44,068 bases of DNA from NCBI GenBank assembly GCA_031274255.1, contig JAISQK010000070.1, positions 1 to 44,068 of the forward strand, written 5' to 3'. The notes below the pieces were generated by a model that saw only the letters and a program-made list of their open reading frames with translations, had not been told where the DNA came from and made no database searches. The DNA comes from Planctomycetaceae bacterium (GTDB lineage Bacteria > Planctomycetota > Planctomycetia > Pirellulales > Thermoguttaceae). A program made the translations under genes and the position numbers. Of the stretch, positions 16,184-43,601 are shown piece after piece (the first letter of the stretch is position 1; each line of letters begins with the position of its first letter).

Positions 16184-17635
16184 ATGAAAAAAGTCGTCAT
16201 TATGGGTGCCGGTCCTGCGGGACTGTCTGCCGGTTACGAGCTGACCAAAGAAGGTATCGCAACGCTGCTTGTTGAAAAAGAGAAACAAGTCGGTGGAATC
16301 AGTAAGACAATCCGTTGTGAAATGTCAACACGGACGGATACGGTTTCAGAGAAAGTCACCAATTACTTTGATCTCGGAGGACATCGTTTCTTTACGAAAT
16401 TTGCCGAAGTCAACGATCTCTGGCAGGAAGTGCTTGGTGACAGGTTCCGTAAAACGCCGCGTCTTTCACGTATTTACTACAACGACAGATTTTTTAACTA
16501 TCCGCTGACGGCCATGAATGCACTCATGGGAGTCGGACTTGCGGACACGGTGAAGATTCTTCTGAGTTACTTTGCGGCGAAGATTCATCCGAGCAAAACG
16601 GAAAACACCTTTGAAGAATGGGTTTCCAATCGATTCGGTAAAAAACTTTTTTTGATTTTTTTCAAAACCTACACGGAAAAAGTCTGGGGAATTCCCTGTT
16701 CTGAAATTCAGGCGGAATGGGCGGCCCAGCGAATCAAAGGACTTTCGCTTTACTCAGCGGTGATGAATGCTCTGCTCAAGCCGAAAAAGAGTAAAATCAC
16801 AACACTGATTGACCGGTTTGATTATCCTGAATTCGGTCCCGGGATGATGTATAACGAAATGAGTTCCCGCATCCTTGACCAACAAGGTTCTGTGCGTTTG
16901 AAAGAGCGGGTCGTAAAAGTGCATCATGCGGGCAATCGAGTGACGGCGGTGGAAACGGAGGACGCCGACGGAGAAACCACCCTTCATGAAGGAACCGATT
17001 TCCTGTCCAGCATTCCGATTACGGAACTTGTGCAGATTCTCTCCCCGGAAGCTCCCGAGAAAGTGATTCATGCCGCGAAAAGTCTGAAATACCGGAGTTT
17101 GGTCACAGTCGATATCATGGTCGATCAGGAAGAACTCTTCCCCGACAACTGGATTTATATTCACTCGCCGGAAGTCAAACTGGGACGGATTCAGAACTTC
17201 AAGAATTGGAGTCCGTCAATGGTTGGTTCGTCCGCACGGTCGACATTGGGACTTGAGTATTTCTGTAACGAAAACAATGGTTTCTGGACAATGCCGGACG
17301 ATAAAATTTTCGCTCAGGCGTCCGAGGAAGTCTCGAAAATCAAAATCTGCGAGCGTGACCGTATTGAAGACTTTCTCGTCGTGCGGGTACCGAAAGCGTA
17401 TCCGGTTTATGACATGGACTACCCGCAGCACATCCGGTTGATTCGTGAATATCTTGACCTGTTTGAAAATCTTCAGCCGATCGGACGATACGGCCTGTTC
17501 AAATACAACAACATGGACCACTCCATTCTGACCGGTTTGTATGCTGCGAAAAACATTCAGGCGGGCAAAAAGATTCATGACATCTGGAACATCAACACTG
17601 ACGAAGAATATCACGAAGAAAAACAGGAAAAGTGA
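16184..17635 (+). CDS. NAD(P)/FAD-dependent oxidoreductase, UDP-galactopyranose-mutase/amine-oxidase-like
   Basis: A 483-residue flavoprotein. The Rossmann motif is 'VVIMGAGPAGLSAGYEL' at the N-terminus, followed by 'VEKEKQVGGISKT' and the 'FDLGGHRFFTK' segment typical of the UDP-galactopyranose mutase-like and protoporphyrinogen-oxidase-like group found in surface polysaccharide loci. The C-terminal 'GRYGLFKYNNMDHSILTGL' is the FAD-contact end. The likely role is sugar-nucleotide or lipid-linked sugar modification; the exact reaction cannot be assigned. The stop is 14 bp before the first of three tandem membrane proteins, so the four genes are probably one operon. Confidence 0.8.
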   Translation: MKKVVIMGAGPAGLSAGYELTKEGIATLLVEKEKQVGGISKTIRCEMSTRTDTVSEKVTNYFDLGGHRFFTKFAEVNDLWQEVLGDRFRKTPRLSRIYYNDRFFNYPLTAMNALMGVGLADTVKILLSYFAAKIHPSKTENTFEEWVSNRFGKKLFLIFFKTYTEKVWGIPCSEIQAEWAAQRIKGLSLYSAVMNALLKPKKSKITTLIDRFDYPEFGPGMMYNEMSSRILDQQGSVRLKERVVKVHHAGNRVTAVETEDADGETTLHEGTDFLSSIPITELVQILSPEAPEKVIHAAKSLKYRSLVTVDIMVDQEELFPDNWIYIHSPEVKLGRIQNFKNWSPSMVGSSARSTLGLEYFCNENNGFWTMPDDKIFAQASEEVSKIKICERDRIEDFLVVRVPKAYPVYDMDYPQHIRLIREYLDLFENLQPIGRYGLFKYNNMDHSILTGLYAAKNIQAGKKIHDIWNINTDEEYHEEKQEK

Positions 17636-17648
17636 CAGAGAGAAAACC

Positions 17649-19001
17649 ATGTCCGCATTGCGTCACATCCCACGAAGTCCATTGTTTTGGATATTGCTTT
17701 TTGTCATCGTTTATTGGAGTGTACCGTTCCGGCAACTTCATCGTCCCCGATTGGCAACCGACTCGGCATCCTATCTTGAGGTATCTCAAAAGATACCGGC
17801 GATTCTGTCGGGTGATGTGGACATTGAACGGACGCCTGTCTATCCGGCATTTCTCGCACTTCACCGTTTGCTTTTCGGTGAGCAGTATTATTTGTATTGG
17901 GTATTCCATTCCCAACAACTTATTATTTTGATTGCCATCATCGTCTTTTATCATCTTACAGGAAGCCTTCTGAAAAACAAGATACTTGCCGCCTTTGCAA
18001 CGTTTTGTTTTGCTGTTCATCCCCATCTTATTATTTACAATATTTCCATTTTAACGGAATCCCTGTCGATTTCCTGTCTGATATTTTTTGTCTATCTGTT
18101 AGTTATCTATTATCGCAAGCCGACATTTCTCAAAGCGTTTTTATCCGGTTTTGGTGTTTTTCTGCTGATTATGCTGCGTCCGGCATTTTTGATACTTCTG
18201 CCGATCTTCATTTTGTTTTGGACATGCCGATTATTGTTTGTTCACGAAACAAGAAAAAAGGACGTTGTTGGTCTTATCACTATATTTGTGGCTTTCGGAC
18301 TTGTCCTCGGATACTGTTATCAGGTCGACAAAAAGTGCGGTATTTTCAATCTTACCATTGCTTCCGCGTTCAATCAATTTCATTGTGTCGTACAGTCAGG
18401 ATTGTATCAAAATGGAAGTGACTCGAAAATCAACCGTCTCATTATACAGACGATAGAGGAGTTCAAAAGAGAATACCCTGATAAACTAAAGGATCCCAAC
18501 TGGCTGCTCGCCGCTCACGGAATGGGGGATGAATCCGATCCGCTCCTCTATCTGCGCGAATCATGGAAACGAAACGGCATTGAACTGTCCCATGAACAAA
18601 AAAACCTTTACGCAATACAAACCATCAAGGCCAATAAACCTGCCTATATTAAATATCTTTTTCAAAAAATCATTTTTTTGAAAGGGGTTGGTTATCCTAT
18701 CAAATTTATGTATGTCTATATTTTACTTCTGTTGAATTTTTTTCTAATATTTGCTTCCTTAAAGCGGTATTCATGGAGTGAAATCATCCTTCACATAACA
18801 CTGTTTTTGATACCGGCAGGAGCTTATTTCACAGCGATTGCCGGTTCACATGCGGAATATGAACGGTTGGTTCTCCCTGTTTTTCCTTTGGTGGTTCTTC
18901 TGTTGTTTTTTGTTATTGATCATTTCACCCGGTGGCAATTTGTACATGATGAAATTTCCGGAAGAAGAAAAATCACCGTTGACATTTTATTGCAGAAATA
19001 A
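17649..19001 (+). CDS. Polytopic membrane protein, GT-C glycosyltransferase-like (copy 1 of 3)
   Basis: A 450-residue membrane protein with about ten hydrophobic segments, first at residues 11-25. An acidic residue in the first outer loop (Asp38 in 'TDSASYLEVSQ') followed by 'TPVYPAFLALHRLLFGE', and later 'TESLSISC' and 'MLRPAFLIL', resemble ArnT/PMT-type GT-C enzymes that use polyprenyl-phosphate sugars. I chose the ATG at 17649 because it gives the same length and start as the two following copies; an upstream in-frame start at 17541 would overlap the FAD gene by about 95 bp. Copies are similar along their length, with the C-terminal 26 residues identical to copy 2. Confidence 0.72.
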   Translation: MSALRHIPRSPLFWILLFVIVYWSVPFRQLHRPRLATDSASYLEVSQKIPAILSGDVDIERTPVYPAFLALHRLLFGEQYYLYWVFHSQQLIILIAIIVFYHLTGSLLKNKILAAFATFCFAVHPHLIIYNISILTESLSISCLIFFVYLLVIYYRKPTFLKAFLSGFGVFLLIMLRPAFLILLPIFILFWTCRLLFVHETRKKDVVGLITIFVAFGLVLGYCYQVDKKCGIFNLTIASAFNQFHCVVQSGLYQNGSDSKINRLIIQTIEEFKREYPDKLKDPNWLLAAHGMGDESDPLLYLRESWKRNGIELSHEQKNLYAIQTIKANKPAYIKYLFQKIIFLKGVGYPIKFMYVYILLLLNFFLIFASLKRYSWSEIILHITLFLIPAGAYFTAIAGSHAEYERLVLPVFPLVVLLLFFVIDHFTRWQFVHDEISGRRKITVDILLQK

Positions 19002-19028
19002 AAAACTTTTCACGCAAAGAAAGAAACT
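18915..19028 (+). repeat. 114-bp direct repeat, unit A (matches 20300-20413)
   Basis: The 3' end of copy 1 and the spacer before copy 2 are identical by eye to 20300-20413 at an offset of 1385 bp; after one mismatch the identity continues for about 24 bp into the next ATG and N-terminal codons. It contains the 3' coding end, the stop codon and the ribosome-site region. Confidence 0.85.
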
Positions 19029-19030
19029 TC

Positions 19031-20386
19031 ATGTTCACCACATTACGCCGCATCCCACGAAGTCCATTGTTTTGGATATTGCTTTTTGTCACCGTTTACC
19101 GGTTCGGGCTTTCCTTTTTTTACAGTGAACCGAAATTTTTTGGGGATACGTTATCCTATATTACGGCATCCCAAAATCTTACATCCCTCCGGCATGGTGA
19201 TGTGGATGTTCTCCGTCCGCCTGTTTATCCGGCTTTTATCGCTGTTCATCGAATGATCTTCGGCGAGGAACATTTGTTGGAATGGATTGTGCGTACCCAA
19301 CAATTGATTTCGTGGTTGTCTGTTATCGCACTCTACTATACCGGTATGAATCTCTTCAAAAATAAAATACTGGTGATATTGGCCACACTTTGTTTTGCTT
19401 TAAACACCGGTGTCTCCTATTTCAATGTTTCGATTTTGTCGGAATCTCCGGCGGTTTCCGGTATTATTTTTCTGATGGCACTTTTGATTTCCTATCTTCG
19501 TCATCCGACATTTCTTAAAGCGTTTTTATTGGGAATAACAGTGTTTTTGTTGATTATGCTGCGTCCGGCGTTTCTGGTATTTTTGCCGGTTTTCCTCCTG
19601 TTTTGGGGATGCCGGTTATTGTTTGTCCGAAAAATGCGGAAAAAAGACGCAATGGGACTTGTCACAACACTTGCCGGATTGTTTCTGGTTTTGGGATACT
19701 GCCACTTGAACAGCAAAAAATGCGGTGTTTTCACTCTCACAGTGGCCTCACCGAATAACCAGTTTGTTTGTATGTTGCAATCCGGATTGTATCAAAAGGA
19801 TAATACGGAAATCAGTTGTCGCACACAATCCGCAATGGAAGAATATCGTAAGCAGTATTGGTATATTACTGACGCAGAGCCGAATTGGTTGCTTCTTGCA
19901 GACGGTATCGGCTTTGATGACCCCATAAATTTCAGAGACCGTGTCTGGGCAAGAGAGGGATTCCATGTCTCTACAGAACAAAAGAACATTTACGTCACTC
20001 AAATGATTAAGAAAAACAAAATAGCTTATGCCGAATACCTGTTGAAAAAAACGGTCATGCTCGGTTTGAATACCGGTCGTTTTATAAAATTTGCCTTTGT
20101 TTATGCCCTGATTTTACTGGATTTTTTTGTAATCCTTCTTTTTATGAAACGATCTCCTGTCAATCAAACACTCTTTTTGACGGTTCTATGGATGATCGTT
20201 ACCGGAGGTTTTGTTACGGCGATTGTCGGTTCGCATGCGGAATACGAACGGCTGGTTTTTCCTGTCAGTTCACTGGTTATTCTCATGTTCTTCTCCGTCA
20301 TTGATCATTTCACCCGGTGGCAATTTGTACATGATGAAATTTCCGGAAGAAGAAAAATCACCGTTGACATTTTATTGCAGAAATAA
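19031..20386 (+). CDS. Polytopic membrane protein, GT-C glycosyltransferase-like (copy 2 of 3)
   Basis: A 451-residue paralogue of the preceding gene with the same layout: N-terminal membrane segment, Asp39 in 'GDTLSYITASQ', 'RPPVYPAFIAVHRMIFGEE', a central conserved block 'PTFLKAFLLGITVFLL' with 'MLRPAFLVFLP', and the C-terminal 'HFTRWQFVHDEISGRRK'. The central soluble-loop region (about 240-340) differs most between copies, which could reflect different acceptor or donor sugars. The start lies 29 bp after copy 1 in a conserved spacer. Confidence 0.72.
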   Translation: MFTTLRRIPRSPLFWILLFVTVYRFGLSFFYSEPKFFGDTLSYITASQNLTSLRHGDVDVLRPPVYPAFIAVHRMIFGEEHLLEWIVRTQQLISWLSVIALYYTGMNLFKNKILVILATLCFALNTGVSYFNVSILSESPAVSGIIFLMALLISYLRHPTFLKAFLLGITVFLLIMLRPAFLVFLPVFLLFWGCRLLFVRKMRKKDAMGLVTTLAGLFLVLGYCHLNSKKCGVFTLTVASPNNQFVCMLQSGLYQKDNTEISCRTQSAMEEYRKQYWYITDAEPNWLLLADGIGFDDPINFRDRVWAREGFHVSTEQKNIYVTQMIKKNKIAYAEYLLKKTVMLGLNTGRFIKFAFVYALILLDFFVILLFMKRSPVNQTLFLTVLWMIVTGGFVTAIVGSHAEYERLVFPVSSLVILMFFSVIDHFTRWQFVHDEISGRRKITVDILLQK

Positions 20387-20413
20387 AAAACTTTTCACGC
20401 AAAGAAAGAAACT
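20300..20413 (+). repeat. 114-bp direct repeat, unit B (matches 18915-19028)
   Basis: Second copy of the identical segment, at the end of the second paralogue and its spacer. The perfect identity contrasts with the diverged gene centres, which points to recent duplication or gene conversion at the ends. Confidence 0.85.
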
Positions 20414-20415
20414 CC

Positions 20416-21771
20416 ATGTTCACCACATTACGCCGCATCATACGAAATCCATTGTTTTGGATATTGCTTTTTGTCGTCATTTATTGGGGAGTATTGTCTC
20501 TCAAGTTCAATCAGCCGCAAATCGGAGGAGACACTCCGTTATATCTTGAGATTTCAGAGGACATCCGGCCTGTTTTGTGCGGGGACGAAGATATTGTCCG
20601 GACGCCTGTTTATCCGGTGTTTCTCGCTCTTCATCGGAAACTTTTCGGTAATGAACATTTTTTGGAATGGACTGTCCGTTCCCAAATGCTTCTTTCGCTG
20701 ATTGCCATCGTTGTTTTTTATTACCTCGCAAAAAGTCTTTTGAAAAACAATATTCTCGCCACTTTCACCGCATTGGGATTTGCAGGCAATCTTTTCATTG
20801 CACACGGTAATACCGTGATTATGACGGAGTCGCTTGCCATTTCCGGTATCGTCTTTCTTGCGGCGATACTGGTTTCCCACCATCATAAGCCGACATTTCT
20901 CAAAGCGTTTTTATTGGGAATAACAGTGTTTTTGTTGATTATGCTGCGTCCGGCATTTTTGATACTTCTGCCGATCTTCATTTTGTTTTGGGCATGCCGG
21001 TTGTTGTTTGTCCGTAAAACATGGAAGAAAGAGATTGCCGGTCTTATCACAATCTTTGCGATGGCCGGGCTTGTTCTCGGATACTGTCATTTGATTCGGC
21101 AAAAGAGCGGCGTTTTCAATCTCACCGTGATTGCGCCGCTGAATCAGTTTACGCGTGTCATTCAATCGGGACTCTATCAGAATGGAAGCGACCCGGAAAT
21201 CAACCGCCATATTCAGTCTGCAATCGAGGAATATCAACAGCAGTATCCTGTCTATATCAAACACCATCCCTATTGGTTGTTCCGCGCTCCCGGTTGGGAT
21301 GGTGAAAACGATCCGATTTTTTACATGTCCAAAGTGTGGGAAAGAGAAGGATACGGTCTTTCCACAAAACAAAAATGCGACTACGCGACGCAAACCATCA
21401 CGGCGAACAAACTGGCTTACATCAAGTATCTGCTCAAAAAGACGATTGTCGAGGGATATTTTTCCGGACGGTTATTGAAGTTTTGCTGGGTTTACGGTTT
21501 GCTCCTTGTTGATTTTCTTACGATCTTGTTTTTCCTGAAACGCTTTTCCGCGAGTCAAACGATTTGCCATGTGATATTGAGTCTGATTGTCGCAGGCTGC
21601 TATTTCACCGCCATTGCCGGAGGGCAAGCGGAGTACGAACGGTTGGTTCTGCCGGTTTATCCGTTGACGGTTCTCCTGTTTTTTTCCGTCATCGACCGTT
21701 TCACTCAATGGCGATTTGTACAGGATCCCGATTCCGCCAAACGGAAAATCACCATTGACATTTCGCCGTAA
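20416..21771 (+). CDS. Polytopic membrane protein, GT-C glycosyltransferase-like (copy 3 of 3)
   Basis: A 451-residue third paralogue. The N-terminus 'MFTTLRRI' is shared with copy 2; Asp39 lies in 'GDTPLYLEISE'; then 'RTPVYPVFLALHRKLFGNE' and 'PTFLKAFLLGITVFLL'. The C-terminus diverges ('QWRFVQDPDSAKRKITIDISP') from copies 1 and 2. The stretch 'PAFLILLPIFILFW' is closer to copy 1 than to copy 2, so the copies look mosaic. It is the last gene of the operon; a weak inverted repeat (ACGGG...CCCGT, about 21769-21800) without a T-run follows. Confidence 0.72.
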   Translation: MFTTLRRIIRNPLFWILLFVVIYWGVLSLKFNQPQIGGDTPLYLEISEDIRPVLCGDEDIVRTPVYPVFLALHRKLFGNEHFLEWTVRSQMLLSLIAIVVFYYLAKSLLKNNILATFTALGFAGNLFIAHGNTVIMTESLAISGIVFLAAILVSHHHKPTFLKAFLLGITVFLLIMLRPAFLILLPIFILFWACRLLFVRKTWKKEIAGLITIFAMAGLVLGYCHLIRQKSGVFNLTVIAPLNQFTRVIQSGLYQNGSDPEINRHIQSAIEEYQQQYPVYIKHHPYWLFRAPGWDGENDPIFYMSKVWEREGYGLSTKQKCDYATQTITANKLAYIKYLLKKTIVEGYFSGRLLKFCWVYGLLLVDFLTILFFLKRFSASQTICHVILSLIVAGCYFTAIAGGQAEYERLVLPVYPLTVLLFFSVIDRFTQWRFVQDPDSAKRKITIDISP

Positions 21772-27326: not shown

Positions 27327-28535
27327 TCAGGGATGACTGTCACTTTCGCCGCCGTTCCGGGAACCGCAGGCTCCCCAGACACCGTAAGGCGACGGCTTGC
27401 CAGGATTGTGGTAAGTCCCGTTGGTTGCATGGACGTAAGGCACGGAAAGACCCGCTGTTCCCGGTGTTGTTGTACTGACCGTATCCGAAACAAACGAAAC
27501 GGAAGCGTCGCCCCACGTCACATTGACACCGCCGGTATGATAACTGGTCGGCGGCAGCAAGGCACCGTCTCCGACACCGCCTGCGGTACAGGAAGGTGAG
27601 TTCGGCGGCAGAAACGTATTAAAATAACAAAAACATGTTTCGGTTGCCTGCATCCGGTGACCGATAAAATGTTCCATCAACTGCGCGTCGGCAATGGAAT
27701 CTTTGTAACTATTGCCGTTTCCTCGTGAATCAAGACAACTTTGCGGCCCCGCCCCTGTCGCGTGGGCAAACCTGTTATCACTTCGCCAACTGGAACGCAA
27801 GGCCCGCCGGTTTCCATTGCCGATGCAGCGTTCACTCATAAAAAGCGTGTTGCTCAAACCGTCTTCAATGGCGGAAAACGGACGGGATTCGTCGTAACAA
27901 AAAGGTGCCCGCGGTACCTTTGTCGTGTACCAGTCATAAGCGTCGCCCCATGAAAATACATAATTGTTGCGTGAAATCATCGTCAGTCCTTCCGTATTCC
28001 AGCCCGAAAGGGTGGAATTGGTCAGTGCCACACTATCGCGCCAGGCGGACGATTGCGGATCCCAATTCGAGGGAATCGGCGGCGTGGTGACTCCGGTTCC
28101 TTCACTGTCGGAGGGACAAAGCAATGTCGAAATCACACCGACCCAGCCGGGATTGTATGCCCAGGGAATTTGCTGAAAACCTGTTGCAGCGATGGATTCG
28201 TAACGTGCGGTTTCCTCAAAAAACGGCAGGATTCGCGGGAACGGAGATAATTGACCTCTACCATTGCCGGCGGCCGAGAAAAAACCCGGCAAGGCGTTAT
28301 ACGCATTATGGTAGTTGTGAAGGGCAAGTCCTAACTGTTTCAATTTGTTACTGCACGACATCCGCCGGGCGGCTTCGCGTGCCGCCTGGACCGCAGGCAA
28401 AAGAAGAGCAATCAGGATACCAATGATTGCAATCACCACCAAAAGTTCGACCAGCGTAAAAGCCTGCCTTTTCTTTCCAATCCTACCCCCCCCCAGTTTA
28501 ACATTGCGGTTTTTTGACATAGTTTTTCTTGACAT
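27327..28535 (-). CDS. DUF1559 prepilin-like protein
   Basis: A 402-residue protein with a type II/IV prepilin-like N-terminus: basic leader, processing site before Phe26 in '[10 protein letters not shown]', Glu30 at mature position 5, a hydrophobic helix to about residue 50, then the DUF1559 hallmark '[19 protein letters not shown]' and '[14 protein letters not shown]'. The C-terminal '[17 protein letters not shown]' motif is also typical. These proteins are numerous in Planctomycetes and are thought to form pseudopili or surface structures. First gene of the operon with the lipoprotein and GH20. Codons 14-17 (Leu-Gly-Gly-Gly) contain nine consecutive G, which makes the frame prone to slippage. 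Confidence 0.92.
28486..28494 (-). repeat. G9 homopolymer tract inside the DUF1559 gene
   Basis: Nine consecutive C on the plus strand, read as G9 in codons 14-17 of the coding strand and followed by TAGG. One extra G gives an immediate TAG; one fewer G leads to a TGA about 20 codons later. Only the present length keeps the protein in frame. Confidence 0.9.
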
Positions 28536-34967: not shown

Positions 34968-37013
34968 TTACACGAATTGTCTTTCCTCACTCGTTTTCAG
35001 AGGATGCCGGGGGCCGGAATGCAAAACAACCTGATTGTTGTCGGGACGTGTCACACAGCCGCCTTCATTATACTTGAAGTTTTTCGTGACTTTGTCAAGT
35101 TCTTCCGCTGTTCTGGTGATGGATTTCACGGCATCGGACGCGGTCATCACACTGGTGTTGTTCTCTTCGGCGGTATTGCTGATGTTTGTAATCGCCTGAC
35201 TGACTTCCTTGAGACTCTCCGTCTGTTTTTCCGACTCCTGAGAAATTTTCGAGATGAGCTGGCTGACTTCGCCCGCCTGTTCGGTGATCCGGTTGAGTGA
35301 TTCCGATGTTTCACGCATAACGGCACTTCCTGAAGCCACATGATTGATCGACTCACCGATCAACGCCGTCGTCTCCTGAGCCGCTTTGGCGCTTCGTGCG
35401 GCAAGATTGCGGACTTCCTCGGCAACGACGGCAAATCCCTTGCCGTGTGTTCCGGCACGTGCGGCTTCCACCGCGGCATTCAAGGCGAGGAGATTCGTCT
35501 GAAACGCGATTTCGTCAATCACATTAATGATTTTTTTGATTTCGCCGGAACTTTGAGTGATGGCTTCCATGGACTGCACCATCTGTTCCATTTTCTTTTT
35601 TCCATCCCCGGAGGTGTGCATCGCCATGGTCGCAATGGAGTCGGCGTTTTTCGCATTCTGAGCGTTCTGTTCGGTCTGCGAGTTCAAGGCGTTCACCGCC
35701 GAAGACACTTCCCGGAGCTGTACGGCGCTTTTCGAAGTGTTGTCAACAAGAATCTGATTGGAACCGGCAAGCTGATTTCCTTCATGATACACCGTGTGAG
35801 CGAGCGAACTGAGGTCTTTGATTGAATCGAACAGTCCATACCGCATGGCGATCAGCGCCGTTCCGAGTGTGTCTTTTTCCGAGGTGAGCGGCACCCAGGT
35901 GGTCAGGTCTCCTTTAGCGATGGAAAGTGCCACTTGCGTTTTTTCCCTCAATGACGCCGCCACTTTACGGAACGACTGCGCAAGAGTTCCGAGTTCGTCA
36001 TGAGTGTTCATGTCGAGTTCAAAATCCAGATTGCCGTCGGTCAGTTCCCTCGCGGCGTCGGTGATTTTGTGGATGCGTCCCACGATTCTCCCTACGACAA
36101 AAAACAGAATGGCAATGAAAACAAGGAGTCCGGCGACGGTGATCGTCAGATTGGTGAAAACATTCGTCATGATCGCCTGATTCTGCGTCTCCGAGGGAAT
36201 CCCGGAAAAAAGGACTCCCATGACACTTCCGTCACCGGCCAAAATGGGAGAGTAAAACACTCTCATCCGCTTTCCCTGAACATAGGTGCTGGTGAAACAG
36301 TCTTTCTTCTGTTTGAAAACAACCTGCTGCACTTCGGGATTGTCCAGTTTGGTTCCGACGGCACGGGTCCCGTCCGGTTGACGCAGTGTCGTTGCGATGC
36401 AGACATCGCCCAAAAAAGTGGTGCTGTCCACATCAAAATTTTCTTTCAAGGTGTCAATCCATTTTTCCGTGTCCAACCGGTAGCCGCATGTGATGACAGC
36501 CGACAGCCGGCCGTTTTCATCTTTGAGCGGCACGGCGGCGCGGATCGCCAGTTTGATGGAAGCGGTTGTTTCATAAGACACGCATTTCGCTTTTCCGTCC
36601 CGGATGTCCTGATAGCAGAGGAGCGAATCAAGAGAGTCTCCGAATCTTTCCGGCTTGTTTGTCCGGAAAATCACGTTGCCGTCCCGGTCGAGAATCGTGA
36701 AAAAGTCGCATGGTTTCGTCAAAATCAACGACTCCAGATGCTTTTTGATCGTCTGACGGTCTCTTGCCTGGATGGCCTTGGTGAAGACCTCCTGTTTCGT
36801 CAGACTCCCCGCCTGATCCAGTGCAAAATCCTGCAAAAGGGCCAACTCATGTTTCAGACTCTTGGCCACCGCATGAACCTCACTGTCCAGCGAGTTTTCC
36901 ACATGATGCTTGAAGGTGAACGTACTGACCGTCAAGGTTGTTCCCACAAGGGCAATGACCAGTATGATGACCGGAATCAGTATTTTCGGAAAAACGCCGT
37001 GAAGTATTTTCAT
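34968..37013 (-). CDS. Methyl-accepting chemotaxis protein
   Basis: A 681-residue transmembrane receptor. Membrane helix 1 is residues 10-32; a Cache-type extracytoplasmic sensor domain spans about 35-285 ('[16 protein letters not shown]', '[14 protein letters not shown]', '[12 protein letters not shown]'); helix 2 is about 288-312; the HAMP domain runs about 308-362; the coiled-coil signalling domain is 400-650. Its hairpin tip '[19 protein letters not shown]' (about 500-518) and '[15 protein letters not shown]' are diagnostic. It has no C-terminal NWETF-type CheR tether. The sensed ligand is unknown; Cache domains bind small carboxylates or amino acids. It is 206 bp downstream of the receiver-Hpt gene, so it is likely controlled separately from it. 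Confidence 0.93.
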
Positions 37014-37219: not shown

Positions 37220-38338
37220 CTATCCCTCTCTTTTGATTCTCTTATAGGGCTGTCGGCCTCCCATTTGCTCCAGTGCCGTCTCAATCTCCTCGATTCCCTG
37301 ACCGTAATCATAGCGGCTGAGCGATTTTTCAATTCTGCGGATGTGATCCGCGGTTTCCGTATCCCATGCGTAATCCGCGAGTCCTGCAAAAGTTCTGCCG
37401 GCCTGCCGGGCGTTATATTGCTTCAAATATTGCGACATCTCCTCCAGAGCCGTGCGGAGCCGTTCCATGTCCGGCGGCTGTTTTTCATGGGATTCGGTGT
37501 CCTCCCCGGAATAGCCGCGAACCGCGTCCACCGTTGTCTGACAAAGTTCGAAAAACGCATCCAGATGTTTTCCGATCCGCGTGACATTCCCTTCCTTTCC
37601 CGCCGTTTCCAAATCTCCGGCCAGAGTGGAAAGCGGTGCGGCCCCGATCGTTCCGGCGATTCCCTTGACGGCGTGAAATTTGATCGTCAGCATTTTCCAG
37701 TCTTCGTCGGCATAACTCCGCTGAATCGTTTGAATGTCTTCTTCCAGCGTTTTCAGGAATGTTTTCAGGTTCATCCGGTAATTTTCCCCGTCGCCGCCGG
37801 AATACCGAAGCCCGGTTGGAACATCCAGAAGTTTTTCTTTTTGTTCCATTCTTCCGCAGTTACCCCCCCCCCCTATTTTATCGCAAATCACTCCGTCCGC
37901 CGCCGGAATCCCGCCGTATTGGGTTTGTGACGAAACCTGCACCGGGGACTGCCGAAATTCCGGAATCCAGGCGGTCATAATCTTTTTCAGTTCGGCCGGG
38001 TCCATCGGTTTGGCAATGTAATCATTGAGACCTGCATGAGCCATTTCCTCACGGATTTCGGCAATGTCGTTCGAGGTCGCCAGAATGACCGGCAATGTGA
38101 CAAAATCCTCTCCCTTGCGGCGGAGAATTTTCGTTGTCTCCATACCGTCCATGTCCGGCATCATGTGATCCATGAGAACAAGGTCGAACCGTTCCTTGCT
38201 CAGGATTTCCACCGCTTCCCGTCCGCTGTCCGCCGTCCGAACGGTCATTCCGTAGGAAGCGAGCAAACCGGACGCCGCTTGCAGACTTGTTTTACTGTCA
38301 TCCACAACCAGAACTTTTTTCGGTGTTTTTCCGCTCAT
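37220..38338 (-). CDS. Response regulator with receiver and Hpt domains
   Basis: A 372-residue protein. The N-terminal receiver (about 7-125) has Asp13/Asp14, phospho-acceptor Asp57 in 'LVLMDHMMPDMDG' and Lys110 in 'YIAKPMD'. A linker of about 35 residues includes Gly-Gly-Gly-Gly-Asn at 157-161, coded by an eleven-G run. The Hpt domain (about 185-290) carries the phospho-His222 in 'KFHAVKGIAGTIGA'. A helical C-terminal tail follows. No DNA-binding or enzymatic output is present, so it is a phosphorelay intermediate, probably fed by the hybrid kinase at 39910-43044. The gene is 93 bp downstream of the triple-receiver gene. Confidence 0.9.
   Translation of the reverse strand: MSGKTPKKVLVVDDSKTSLQAASGLLASYGMTVRTADSGREAVEILSKERFDLVLMDHMMPDMDGMETTKILRRKGEDFVTLPVILATSNDIAEIREEMAHAGLNDYIAKPMDPAELKKIMTAWIPEFRQSPVQVSSQTQYGGIPAADGVICDKIGGGGNCGRMEQKEKLLDVPTGLRYSGGDGENYRMNLKTFLKTLEEDIQTIQRSYADEDWKMLTIKFHAVKGIAGTIGAAPLSTLAGDLETAGKEGNVTRIGKHLDAFFELCQTTVDAVRGYSGEDTESHEKQPPDMERLRTALEEMSQYLKQYNARQAGRTFAGLADYAWDTETADHIRRIEKSLSRYDYGQGIEEIETALEQMGGRQPYKRIKREG
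37863..37873 (-). repeat. G11 homopolymer tract between the receiver and Hpt domains
   Basis: Eleven consecutive C on the plus strand, read as G11 in codons 157-160 of the coding strand and followed by TAAC. One extra G yields TAA at once; one fewer leads to TGA about 30 codons on. Either change would leave a receiver without its Hpt domain. Confidence 0.92.
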
Positions 38339-38431: not shown

Positions 38432-39880
38432 TCAAATCTCGGCTCCCATTTTCCGGAGTTCGAGAAACCGGCGGCGGTAATCGTCCAGTTTCAACTGCAG
38501 CCGGATCCGGCGGAGCAGCAGTTCCGGCATCACGGGTTTGATGATGTAATCGGCGGCTCCCAGACTCAGACCGGTCAGTTTGCTTTCCTCATCGTCGCGT
38601 GTTGTGAAAAAAATCACGGGAACGGACATCCGGCCCGGATCCGCCTTGATTTTTTCAATCAATTGGAAACCGTCCATCTCCGGCATTTCCACGTCCAGAA
38701 GAATCAGGTCCGGCCGGTGATACTTCAAATACACCAATGCCCGGTCCGCTGTCGCAAACGGAACCGGATTGAACTCCGTTTCCAGGATTTTTTCAATCGT
38801 CGAGAGGATCATGTAGGAATCATCCACGATCAGGATGATTTTTCTTTCCCTGATGTCGGCCGGCGTTTCAATACCGATACGGCTCCGTTCCAGAAACCCC
38901 TCCAGCGTTCCTTTCAGGTCATTATCCTGTTTGTTCCGCTTGTCCGTCTCAATTTCCCTGATTTGTTCCCCGGTCCGTTTTTGGAACTGTTCCAGACGTT
39001 TCCGGTAATCGTAAAGCTCCAGTTGCATGTGAATCCGGTGAAGCAGGATTTCCGGCAGAACCGGTTTGGTGATGTAATCCACCGCTCCCAGACTCAGACC
39101 GGCCAGTTCATGCCGGGCATCGTTCTGGGAGGTGAAAAACAGAACCGGCGTCATATCCATACGGGGGTCGGCGCGGAGTTTGATCACGGTTTCATAACCG
39201 TTCTGTTCCGGCATTTCGATGTCCATGATAATCATATCCACCCACGCCCCCTGTAAATACTTTAGCGCGGATGTTCCCGAAATGAAAAGGACCACTTCAA
39301 ACTCCTTTTCAAGCAGCCCTGCCATCATGTCAAGAATGGCGGGCGTATCGTCGACCACCATTATCGTTTTTCTGGTCTTCGGATTTTTGTCCTGTTTGTT
39401 CCGTTTGTCCGTCTTCGCTTTCTCAATGTCCTGTTTGCCCGGCTTGTCCGCTTCTGCTTTTTTGGCTTGTCCGGTCTGTTCCTGGAACCGCTCCAGACGT
39501 CTCCGGTAATCGCAGAGTTCCAGCTGCGCATGAATCCGGTGGAGCAGAATTTTCGGCAGCACCGGTTTGGTGATGTAATCCACCGTTCCCAGACTCCGTC
39601 CGCCGAGTTTATGCGGAGCGTCGTTCCGCGAGGTGAGAAACAAAACCGGCGTCGTGTCCATGCGGTGGTCTGTGCGGAGCCGGAGTACCGTTTCGTAACC
39701 GCTCATCTCCGGCATTTCGACATCCATGATAATCATATCCACCCACGATCCCTTCAAATACTCCAGCGCAGAACGTCCCGAAGAGAAAGGCACAACCTCA
39801 AATTCTTTTTTAAGCAGCACGACGATCGTCTTGAGAATGGAAGGCGTGTCGTCAACAACCATTATTGTTTTTCTGGTCAT
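38432..39880 (-). CDS. Triple-receiver response regulator
   Basis: A 482-residue protein made of three CheY-like receivers with no other output domain. Phospho-acceptors are Asp53 ('MIIMDVEMPEMSGYE'), Asp220 ('MIIMDIEMPEQNGYE') and Asp396 ('LILLDVEMPEMDGF'); each domain keeps its Asp-Asp pair and a KP motif ('YITKPVLP' twice, 'YIIKPVMP'). Domains 1 and 2 are near-duplicates over their length, including the closing 'DYRRRLERFQ'/'DYRKRLEQFQ' helix and a shared charged linker 'TDKRNKQD'; domain 3 is more distant. It is probably a phosphate sink or scaffold in the local phosphorelay. The stop of the hybrid kinase gene's neighbour lies 29 bp away. Confidence 0.92.
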   Translation of the reverse strand: MTRKTIMVVDDTPSILKTIVVLLKKEFEVVPFSSGRSALEYLKGSWVDMIIMDVEMPEMSGYETVLRLRTDHRMDTTPVLFLTSRNDAPHKLGGRSLGTVDYITKPVLPKILLHRIHAQLELCDYRRRLERFQEQTGQAKKAEADKPGKQDIEKAKTDKRNKQDKNPKTRKTIMVVDDTPAILDMMAGLLEKEFEVVLFISGTSALKYLQGAWVDMIIMDIEMPEQNGYETVIKLRADPRMDMTPVLFFTSQNDARHELAGLSLGAVDYITKPVLPEILLHRIHMQLELYDYRKRLEQFQKRTGEQIREIETDKRNKQDNDLKGTLEGFLERSRIGIETPADIRERKIILIVDDSYMILSTIEKILETEFNPVPFATADRALVYLKYHRPDLILLDVEMPEMDGFQLIEKIKADPGRMSVPVIFFTTRDDEESKLTGLSLGAADYIIKPVMPELLLRRIRLQLKLDDYRRRFLELRKMGAEI

Positions 39881-39909: not shown

Positions 39910-42900
39910 TCATATCTGGAAATTTTCCGCCTGATGGCATTTCCGCAGTAATTCCTCCGTAAGCGTGATCGCTTCTTCAAATTCCGAAAGCAGAATGTTT
40001 TGTGCAATTTCATGGAGCGGCTCCCGGATTCCCGTGTTCCGGGCAAGCAATTCCGCCATGATGTTGTCCACCGTCCGTGTCTGCATTTCTTCAAGAGCGG
40101 TTTTCAGATGTTCCAGCCTGTCGTTCAGGAAACGGTCATTCTCTTCCGCCTCTTCCGTCGGAGCGGTTTTCTGTTCCGTTTTTGACGTCAGAAAATTCTT
40201 CAACCGTTCATGGAGAGCATTCAATTCGCTGACAAATTCCTCATTGTTTGCCGTGATGCAAACCAGGTCTTCCTTTTTTGCGGCGTTTTCCAGCAAGGCG
40301 GCTTTTTGGGACAGCGACGGTACGCCGATCATCGCAAGCGCACTTTTGAAACCGTGAACCGTTGTGGCGTAAAGTTTCATGTTCCCGGATTCCAGCGATT
40401 GCCGGATCGTATCGAATTTGTCGTTCACATCCGTGCAAAAACTGCGGAGAACAAGCAGATAGCCGTCCGGAGTTCCGCCTGTCCTGGCGATTCCCGCCCG
40501 AACATCAACCCCCGGTATGGCGAGAAACGGTTCCTCCTGATACTGCCGGTGTCTGCCTGCGGAATACTCCTCCTGTTTTTCTTTAGGAATCCACTTGCCG
40601 AGAATGGAATTCAGTTTCCCTGTTTCAATCGGTTTGGCGAGGAAATCGTCCATTCCGTTCTGAAGAAACATCTCTTTCATGCCGGAAACCGCGTTGGCCG
40701 TCAGTGCGATGATCGGCAGTTTTTTGAAACGTTCCCCCGAAAGTGCCCTGATCCGGCTTGTCGCTTCAATACCGTCCATTTCCGGCATCATGTGATCCAT
40801 GAAGACCAGATCATAGGAAAACTGTTTGACGAGATCAACCGCTTCGGCCCCGCTCATGGCAAAGTCGATCTGCATTTTGTAAGGCAGAAGCAGACCTTCG
40901 GCCACACTCAGATTGGTTCTGATGTCGTCCACGACGAGAATCCGCGCCGTCGGAGCCTGAAAATGAACGCGGAATTCCCGTTCCTCTTCGAAATGACCGC
41001 CGTCCGTCACGTTGTTGAGCAGGTTGGCGATGGCAAGCGAATGAGCGGGCAACATGACGGTCCGGACATTTGCCAGGTCGGATTGCTCAATGTTCTCGGA
41101 AAACAACGCGATTTTCGTGCAGGAAGGAAGGTTGCAGAGAATGTTTCTCAATCCTTCATAAGCAAACGACGCCAGAAAGATAAACGTGTACTGATTGACC
41201 CGGACATCTTCATAAAACTCGGATTGTCCTTTGACGATTTTGTATCGGACTTTCAGACTGTCGAGTGTTTTGCAGAGGGATTCCGCATAAAGGGAACGCG
41301 ATTCGTACAAAAGGACGGAATGTTCCTCGGGATGGTCAACGGAAGCAAACGGAGTGTCGTTTTCATAGATTTGCGGCAAGGTGACCGTGAAGGTGCTTCC
41401 CTGTCCGTACACGCTTTCAAAAGTGAGTTTTCCCTCCATCATCGTGGTCAGATTCAGTGTGATGGGTAAACCGAGTCCCGTTCCTTCCCCTCCTTTGTTC
41501 ACGGTCAGGTCGAACTGGGCAAAGTCGTCGAACAGCCTCGCCTTGTCTTTCTCCCTGATGCCGATACCGGTATCGGTCACGCAGAAGGTCAGAAGGATGA
41601 TATGAGCGGCCTGTTTCGTCCCTGTCACGGAAAGTGTGACCGATCCTTCACGGGTGTATTTGACGGCGTTGGAAAGGAGGTTCAGAAGAATCTGTCTTAC
41701 GTGCACCACATCGCCGGAAAGATTGTTCGGCAGCTTCGCATCGACCTCCACGGGAAACTGAAGCGACTTTTCCCGAAGTCTCATCCGTATGATGTTGACC
41801 ACATCATTGATCAGCGAGGAAAGCGTGTATTTTTCGTGGAGGATTTCCATTTTTCCCGATTCAATCTTCGAAAAATCGAGAATGTCGTTGATGATCGCAA
41901 GCAGATTGACGCTTGCGTGTCTGATATTGTTCGCGTATTCGAGGATTTTCGGAGGCAGTATTTCCCTGTCCCGTAAAATCAGGTCGGACATTCCTGAGAT
42001 GGCGTTCATCGGCGTCCGGATTTCGTGACTCATTCTGGCGAGAAAGGTCGATTTACTCTGATTGCGGATATCCGCTTCCTCTTTCTCCCCGTAGAGCCGG
42101 ACCAGAAAAAAGCAGAGAATCGACATGTGAATGAAACCAAGGAGCAAAAGGACGATCCCCATCTGGCTGACCAGCCGGTAATAATGGGCAACCGGCGTCA
42201 CGGACGTGACATACCAGCCGTTTTCCATCCGCCAGGAAAAAAAGATTTTGACGCTTCCGTCGTCATCCTTAAACCGGACGCCGTGAATCTCCTTTCCCTC
42301 GCGAATCCGTTTTGCAAGCTCGCTGCCGCTCTTGCTGATTTCAGAAACGTGTCTTCCCAGCCATTTATGGTCGTGGAATGCAAGAACATGCTGTTGTTCA
42401 TCCAGCAGTAAGGCATATCCTCCTCCGGGCATACGCAGTCCTTCAATTGTATCGGAGATCACGTCAAGGTCGAAATCAACGGCGAGAACGCCGCACGGTT
42501 TCCCGCCGTTTTCCGGGTTTTCGAAAATCTGCTTGGAAACGGTGATGCAGAGGTGACCGGTCTGGGGGGAACGGTGAGGCTCCGAATAATAAAACTTTCC
42601 TTCTTTTTCAATGGCTCCGGCATACCAGGGGTCCGACATCGGATTGCAATCGGGCGGCGGTTCCCAGCCAGTGCTGTCCAGAAATTTTCCGTAAATTTCA
42701 CCGAAAATACTGTTAAAAGCAAACCCCTTGATATTTTTTTCATGGAGAAAACGGACGGTGTCCGTGAGGAAATTCCTGACCTCCTCCGGACTGTTTCCGG
42801 TTGCAATCATGTGCTCGACGGTGAATGTGACGTTGGTAAGGATGATTTCCGTCCCCGAACGGAGCGAGTAGGCGCGGGAACGTGAGGAGGCCATGATCTC

Positions 42901-43044
42901 CTGGGCGTTAACGTCAATCTGCCGTGTGATGATGGTGCGGACGTAAAAATAACTTACGACAACCATGGTCAGAAAAGCCGCGGCGACAAACAGTAACTGC
43001 TTATAATTTTGTTGAATTGTTGTTATTTTTATCATGAGAATCAT
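39910..43044 (-). CDS. Hybrid sensor histidine kinase (Cache-HisKA-HATPase-receiver-Hpt)
   Basis: A 1044-residue membrane kinase. Helix 1 about 17-38; Cache sensor about 40-285 ('[20 protein letters not shown]', '[13 protein letters not shown]'); helix 2 about 293-316; HisKA with His340 in '[18 protein letters not shown]'; HATPase with N-box '[10 protein letters not shown]' (455-464), G-boxes 'DTGIGI' (491-496) and '[10 protein letters not shown]'. A degenerate receiver-like segment (about 575-685) without the phospho-Asp comes next, then a true receiver with Asp750 in '[13 protein letters not shown]', then an Hpt domain with His897 in '[13 protein letters not shown]'. It contains every step of a His-Asp-His relay in one chain. 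Start ATG at 43044; a second ATG three codons in is also possible. Confidence 0.93.
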
Positions 43045-43107: not shown

Positions 43108-43497
43108 TTACGGCCCGGTTTGCAGAATGTTTTCAACCCGTTCCAGAAGTTCCTGCGGTAAAAACGGTTTGGTGATGTAATCGGCGGCGCCCACCAGACT
43201 GCGGCATTCCCGTTCGTCGTCGCAGTTGGTTCTGGCGGTCAGAAAAATGACCGGTATTTCAGCCGTCACGGGATCGGCTTTGAGACGTCTGATGACTTCA
43301 TAGCCATCCATTCCGGGCATCTCAATGTCCAGAAGAATGAGGTCCGGTACCGTCCGCTCCAGCATTCGGAACAGTTTTTCGCCCGACGGAATCGTGATCA
43401 CATCGTAGTCTTTTCCCAGAATATTCTTGCCGTTCACCAGGTTGGTGATATTGTCGTCAACCAGCATGATTTTTTTGATTTCATCGGACATAAACAT
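43108..43497 (-). CDS. Single-domain response regulator
   Basis: A 129-residue CheY-like protein. The receiver has the Asp pair in 'IMLVDDNITNL', phospho-acceptor Asp in 'LILLDIEMPGMDGYE', Thr in 'VIFLTART' and Lys in 'YITKPFLP'. The chosen ATG at 43497 has AGAGGA 5-6 nt upstream; an in-frame ATG at 43578 would add a 27-residue unrelated N-terminus. First gene of the block, 63 bp before the hybrid kinase, and its sequence is close to receiver 3 of the triple-receiver protein, so the family probably grew here by duplication. Confidence 0.88.
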   Translation of the reverse strand: MFMSDEIKKIMLVDDNITNLVNGKNILGKDYDVITIPSGEKLFRMLERTVPDLILLDIEMPGMDGYEVIRRLKADPVTAEIPVIFLTARTNCDDERECRSLVGAADYITKPFLPQELLERVENILQTGP

Positions 43498-43601
43498 CAA
43501 TTCCTCTTGGGAGCCGCAATCAATTCGGACAGGACGCTCCTCTGAATCCCGTTCCTGTCCAACTATGTCATATTTCAAACAGCATGATAAGAAAACATGA
43601 C

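Follow-up and report, generated by a model that had tools for sequence, protein, structure and literature searches.

Organization of the receiver-Hpt locus

The window (the whole 44,068-nucleotide stretch of DNA analysed, part of the genome designated G000) carries a gene for a free-standing protein, P0001, in which a receiver and an Hpt domain are joined by a linker containing eleven consecutive G. This arrangement, put forward in the original prediction, was confirmed by the sequence, the open reading frame and the Pfam domains. The gene and its signalling neighbours have the following coordinates:

34968..37013, minus strand: Cache-HAMP methyl-accepting (MCP) protein (Pfam)
37220..38338, minus strand: receiver-Hpt protein P0001, 372 amino acids (open reading frame, Pfam and predicted structure)
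37520..37768, minus strand: Hpt domain, residues 191-273 (Pfam Hpt, 3.2e-11)
37838..37933, minus strand: interdomain linker, residues 136-167, disordered, pLDDT below 50 (AlphaFold2)
37863..37873, minus strand: G11 tract, eleven C on the plus strand and eleven G on the coding strand, encoding Gly156-159
37979..38314, minus strand: receiver (REC) domain, residues 9-120 (Pfam Response_reg, 2.1e-28)
38432..39880, minus strand: triple-receiver protein (Pfam)
39910..43044, minus strand: hybrid kinase dCache-HisKA-HATPase-REC-Hpt (Pfam), candidate phosphate source as a putative partner
43108..43578, minus strand: single receiver (Pfam)

In the AlphaFold2 model the linker is unstructured, and the receiver on one side of it and the helical Hpt part on the other are predicted with confidence. 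In an alignment of 26 sequences the phospho-acceptor Asp57 and Lys110 of the receiver, as well as His222 and Lys225 of the Hpt domain, were invariant, so both domains look active; the protein thus combines the receiver with acceptor Asp and Lys and the Hpt domain with phospho-accepting His that define a receiver-Hpt phosphorelay protein. The linker, by the same alignment, is conserved neither in sequence nor in length. Identity as a BarA/ArcB hybrid kinase was rejected, since the match covered the C-terminal part alone and reached 108 bits against a BarA cut-off of 890.

The same-strand location of the hybrid kinase, triple receiver, single receiver and MCP genes suggests a putative common pathway with the receiver-Hpt protein. 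Elsewhere in the window, positions 17541-21771 hold three tandem membrane protein genes of ~450-490 amino acids, whose products have identical C-termini in two cases (DHFTRWQFVHDEISGRRKITVDILLQK) and a similar one in the third.

Length, novelty and frame consequences of the G11 tract

Markov models of order 2, 3 and 5, trained on sampled stretches of the G000 genome with the tracts masked, predicted 0.0007-0.003 runs of at least eleven G per window and 0.06-0.25 per genome. The lengths of G-runs in the first 346 kb of the genome sampled were distributed discontinuously: runs of 5, 6, 7 and 8 numbered 195, 42, 4 and 0, and runs of 9, 10, 11, 12, 13 and 14 numbered 10, 4, 18, 46, 12 and 4. The histogram therefore has a gap at 8 and a separate hump at 11-13, within which the receiver-Hpt tract falls. 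With 135 of 919 occurrences, GGG is moreover the rarest glycine codon of the window, so a glycine linker by itself is insufficient to account for the run.

No orthologue of the receiver-Hpt protein was found in three congeners at E<=1e-20, save a 34% match in a different, larger protein, and thus there is no tract conservation at this locus. A scan of genome contigs returned homologues 26-45% identical, nearly all from other phyla, which inform on linker variation and not on tract length. The nearest one (39% identical, from another genus) has a collinear linker with neither glycines nor a long G-run, and the G-runs of 92 homologue linkers reach a maximum of 7 and are mostly of 4 or fewer. Together with the lack of a congener orthologue, these comparisons mark the run as a local novelty of the receiver-Hpt gene. 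A possible origin of the tract as an insertion with respect to the homologues was discarded, because the nearest of them aligns without one.

Frame computation bore out the predicted effects of a gain or a loss of one G, which involve two further elements:

37860..37862, minus strand: TAA met immediately on gain of one G (frame computation)
37847..37849, minus strand: ATG (Met164) in the Hpt frame, candidate reinitiation start (from sequence)

One extra G brings the TAA into frame straight after the tract and yields a product of 159 amino acids that keeps the whole receiver, while one G fewer leads to a stop ~30 codons downstream and a product of 188; loss or gain of two G gives 158 and 189 amino acids, respectively. 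The tract thus resembles a poly-G contingency locus in that its length is far above chance in a coding region, a unit change leads to an early stop and it belongs to a genome-wide tract set, described below.

Poly-G tracts in the leaders of DUF1559 genes

The support that is invisible from the window comes from the tracts of the genome and its congeners, which lie in genes with random-looking frames. By pattern searches with inspection of the flanking DNA, the G000 assembly (377 contigs, 87% complete) contains 127 G-tracts of at least 9. Among 120 distinct tracts, 98 lie upstream of a prepilin motif, 9 at contig ends and 13 elsewhere; G9 tracts outside leaders (L032, L100, L135 and others) were counted as probable chance occurrences. 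At least 98 tracts sit in the 5' leaders of DUF1559 prepilin-like genes, between the start codon and the prepilin motif. Seven tract genes sampled across four species of the genus all scored above the cut-off for PF07596 (DUF1559), and six of them also for PF07963 (N-methylation leader), with L219 just under it. The second long G-run of the window is of this kind:

27327..28535, minus strand: DUF1559 prepilin-like gene with a G9 tract, 402 amino acids (Pfam PF07596, PF07963)
28486..28494, minus strand: G9 tract, in frame (ON), in the leader of this gene

Tracts of at least 12 number 83 in G000 and 61, 55 and 41 in three congeners, many of the congener tracts being likewise in DUF1559 leaders; most remaining family members have 0-2. 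Several tracts of G012, which belongs to another genus, also fall in DUF1559 leaders.

Two large leader families share common flanks, MKKLLENVKI-GGGG and MQKFTLCPKCQN-GGGG. Examples of poly-G leaders in G000 are L037, L052, L033 and the window tract at 28486-28494. In L037, L052, L141 and others, overlapping ATGs open two frames (ATGTTAAAATGG / AAAATGGGG), one of which is closed where a G-to-A substitution at the edge of the tract converts TGG to TAG. At the G001 and G002 loci (L156-L215) the base before the tract is mostly C rather than T/A, the leaders form a distinct family (MKKLNKAFDFLGL..NMS-GGGG), and many copies carry an imperfect palindrome, TACGTAAAATGGCT..AGCCATATTTTACGT, downstream of the tract.

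The most frequent tract length is 12 in G000, G001 and G002, while in G003 lengths are spread over 9-16. Whether a length of 12 keeps the frame differs from one gene family to another. Counting ATG starts, 74 of 98 genes are ON in G000 and 16 of 25 in G003, where leaders have ATGs in two frames, against 8 of 34 in G001 and 5 of 20 in G002, where leaders have one ATG frame; with phases set at random one would expect two-thirds and one-third, respectively, and the proportions come close to this. Open frames of 330-410 amino acids persist past the tract in many OFF genes, which have therefore not decayed. Under reversible translational phase variation a single assembly would be expected to show this pattern, from which we infer such variation as the probable cause.

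Selection for length 12 to hold the frame was rejected as a general cause, since most G001 and G002 genes are out of frame at 12. Unlike this general case, three interrupted G000 tracts (L145:356, L147:2086 and L154:2055), which read G9-A-GG or G9-T-GG and retain a total of 12, are in frame with a near ATG and are perhaps locked phases. L041 and L118 (G15 and G9) were considered as alleles of one locus and set aside: they are merely 92% identical over 541 bp and hence paralogues.

The genus-wide pseudopilin tract set is a stronger finding than the receiver-Hpt tract. Among the papers searched, none tied DUF1559 proteins to phase variation, and a search combining Planctomycetes, homopolymeric tracts and phase variation returned no planctomycete study among its 20 best matches. 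With ~100 members under tract control in one genome, this pilin-like family would be, to our knowledge, among the largest single-family contingency repertoires; if the control is real, it would also offer a role for the puzzling expansion of DUF1559 proteins.

Relation of the receiver-Hpt tract to the pilin tracts

The surroundings of the receiver-Hpt tract, GATAAAATA-G11-TAACTG, match those of a pilin tract, GTTAAAATA-G11, at 19 of 20 positions. Both share an AAAATA-G11 core, an agreement of ~0.4% by chance: AAAAT or AAAATA precedes 0.4% of GG starts in G000, and either of them, or a one-base variant, stands ahead of nearly all G000 tracts of at least 10. Because of this common core, the receiver-Hpt tract looks like a stray member of the pilin set. 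It may derive from a pilin leader by copying, or the context may itself favour slippage.

Very few non-pilin genes of G000 have a tract of at least 11; other non-pilin tracts of this genome lie near the C-terminus of a lipoprotein-like open reading frame (L327) and in the region before an ankyrin-type one (L130). In relatives we observed a tract in a polysaccharide export gene (G001, L179:1497; Pfam Poly_export), an AAAATA-G11 that keeps the frame of a methyltransferase-like gene (G011 of the same family, L397) and a tract in an MBOAT-like gene (also G011), the last two named by eye. Genes of these three kinds are typical phase-variable types. A second tract beside an Hpt protein, a G10, was seen in G003 (L377:1554), where it separates a lone Hpt-like gene from a divergent hybrid kinase gene.

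A proposed switch between fused and separate domains

Taken together, these observations make it very likely that the G11 run is a hotspot of copying slippage able to split a signalling protein of two domains. With somewhat less assurance, we favour the fuller reading that the run is hypermutable and belongs to a genus-specific set of poly-G tracts, ~127 of at least 9 in G000 and mainly in DUF1559 leaders, and that its slippage toggles the receiver-Hpt protein between a fused and an ended product. Slipped-strand mispairing during replication would add or remove G; with 11 G (or 8 or 14) the receiver would be fused to the Hpt domain, and in the other phases translation would stop in or just past the linker. 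Tract length would accordingly vary within a population, most cells making the fused protein and a minority a free receiver, and the flow of phosphate would be altered in that minority.

The original prediction had slippage produce a lone receiver. The slippage-prone class of the tract, the disordered and unconserved linker and the loss of Hpt from the fused product on a change of one G in either direction all agree with that proposal, but a lone receiver is not the sole possible OFF product, since 10 nt past the TAA created by the extra G there is an ATG in the frame of the Hpt domain. In the +1 phase, termination followed by reinitiation at Met164 could yield a separate Hpt protein, so that the minority might hold a free receiver with or without a reinitiated Hpt protein. 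The switch would then be between fused and split rather than between the presence and absence of Hpt. If the tract varies, the wiring of the phosphorelay, with receiver and Hpt fused or separate, would be set by a slipping run.

A broader scheme, which we put forward as unlikely, would treat AAAAT(A)-G~12 as a poly-G leader element providing combinatorial slippage control of ~100 DUF1559 pseudopilins; the same element would have entered the phosphorelay gene, where it would toggle receiver and Hpt between fused and separate states and couple surface variation with a signalling switch.

Other readings of the tract

A doubtful but still credible account is that the tract is slippage-prone yet a passive passenger in the receiver-Hpt gene: it would have grown through slippage or come from a pilin leader by copying, and would be tolerated in a free linker, its switching unused. 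The presence of tracts of at least 11 in only a handful of non-pilin genes means that this one may be accidental, and the account draws further on the freedom of linker sequence and length among homologues, on the nearest homologue with neither Gly nor a long G-run at the linker, and on the 20-nt core that matches pilin leaders at all positions but one. Against it, the frame is intact in the only known copy, as are the active residues of both REC and Hpt.

The tract could also act at the RNA level, transcriptional slippage or ribosomal frameshifting at poly-G turning one DNA length into a fixed mixture of products. Such programmed slippage would explain how, in two congeners, most pilin genes could be read although the modal length of 12 puts them out of frame, but we consider it very improbable: the offset required varies by gene family and species and lengths span 9-18, which DNA slippage fits better than a fixed programmed shift does, and the receiver-Hpt gene requires no shift.

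We give almost no credence to an artefact of assembly or base calling, for example through poly-G tails on reads or the chimeric joining of sequences. Contig-end runs that are probably sequencing artefacts do exist (G105 at C94:1-105, L101; G66 at G001:C15:1-66, L158), and about one tract in five is found no more than ~150 bp from the end of a contig, but the receiver-Hpt tract is internal and in frame, with coherent coding sequence on both sides and collinearity with a homologue across the junction. Just as implausible is an ordinary flexible glycine linker whose run has no significance of its own, for although the tract encodes four Gly in a linker, it does so with the rarest Gly codon, falls in the separate length hump and exceeds every run in the 92 homologue linkers.

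Comparison with known systems

The slippage switch that we favour has parallels in several systems. In the lic genes of Haemophilus influenzae several ATGs precede the repeat and start codons lie in two frames, as in the G000 pilin leaders with two-frame ATGs ahead of the tract; the lic repeats differ in being tetranucleotides and in lying in lipopolysaccharide genes. MutS normally curbs homopolymer slippage, and as far as we know Campylobacter lacks a working mismatch repair system. G000 differs in this respect: its MutS is present and intact, by which mismatch-repair loss was rejected as the cause of the tracts, and switching may therefore be slower than in Campylobacter, at perhaps modest rates.

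Campylobacter otherwise resembles G000 in its numerous intragenic poly-G tracts per genome, slippage of which turns translation ON and OFF (PMC8355987). Its tract genes are mostly surface glycan, capsule and flagellar genes, whereas in G000 ~100 belong to one DUF1559 prepilin-like family. Mutations in flgR and flgS, which like those proposed here affect homopolymers in two-component signalling, fall in poly-A/T tracts shorter than 7 and are described as not reversible (PMC8355987).

A further parallel to the receiver-Hpt tract is bvgS of Bordetella pertussis, where one extra base in a C6/C7 tract truncates the sensor and switches phase (PMC1891110). Homopolymer switching of a phosphorelay protein is thus already known, and the suggestion that phase variation of a phosphorelay intermediate would be unusual has to be qualified by this precedent and by the flgR/flgS mutations. 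Both genes have a homopolymer in the coding region of a phosphorelay-type protein, but in bvgS it is a short C6 in a sensor kinase gene, and here a G11 within the linker that joins the two domains of a free-standing receiver-Hpt protein. Unlike the truncation of the BvgS sensor, the gain of one G would spare the whole receiver.
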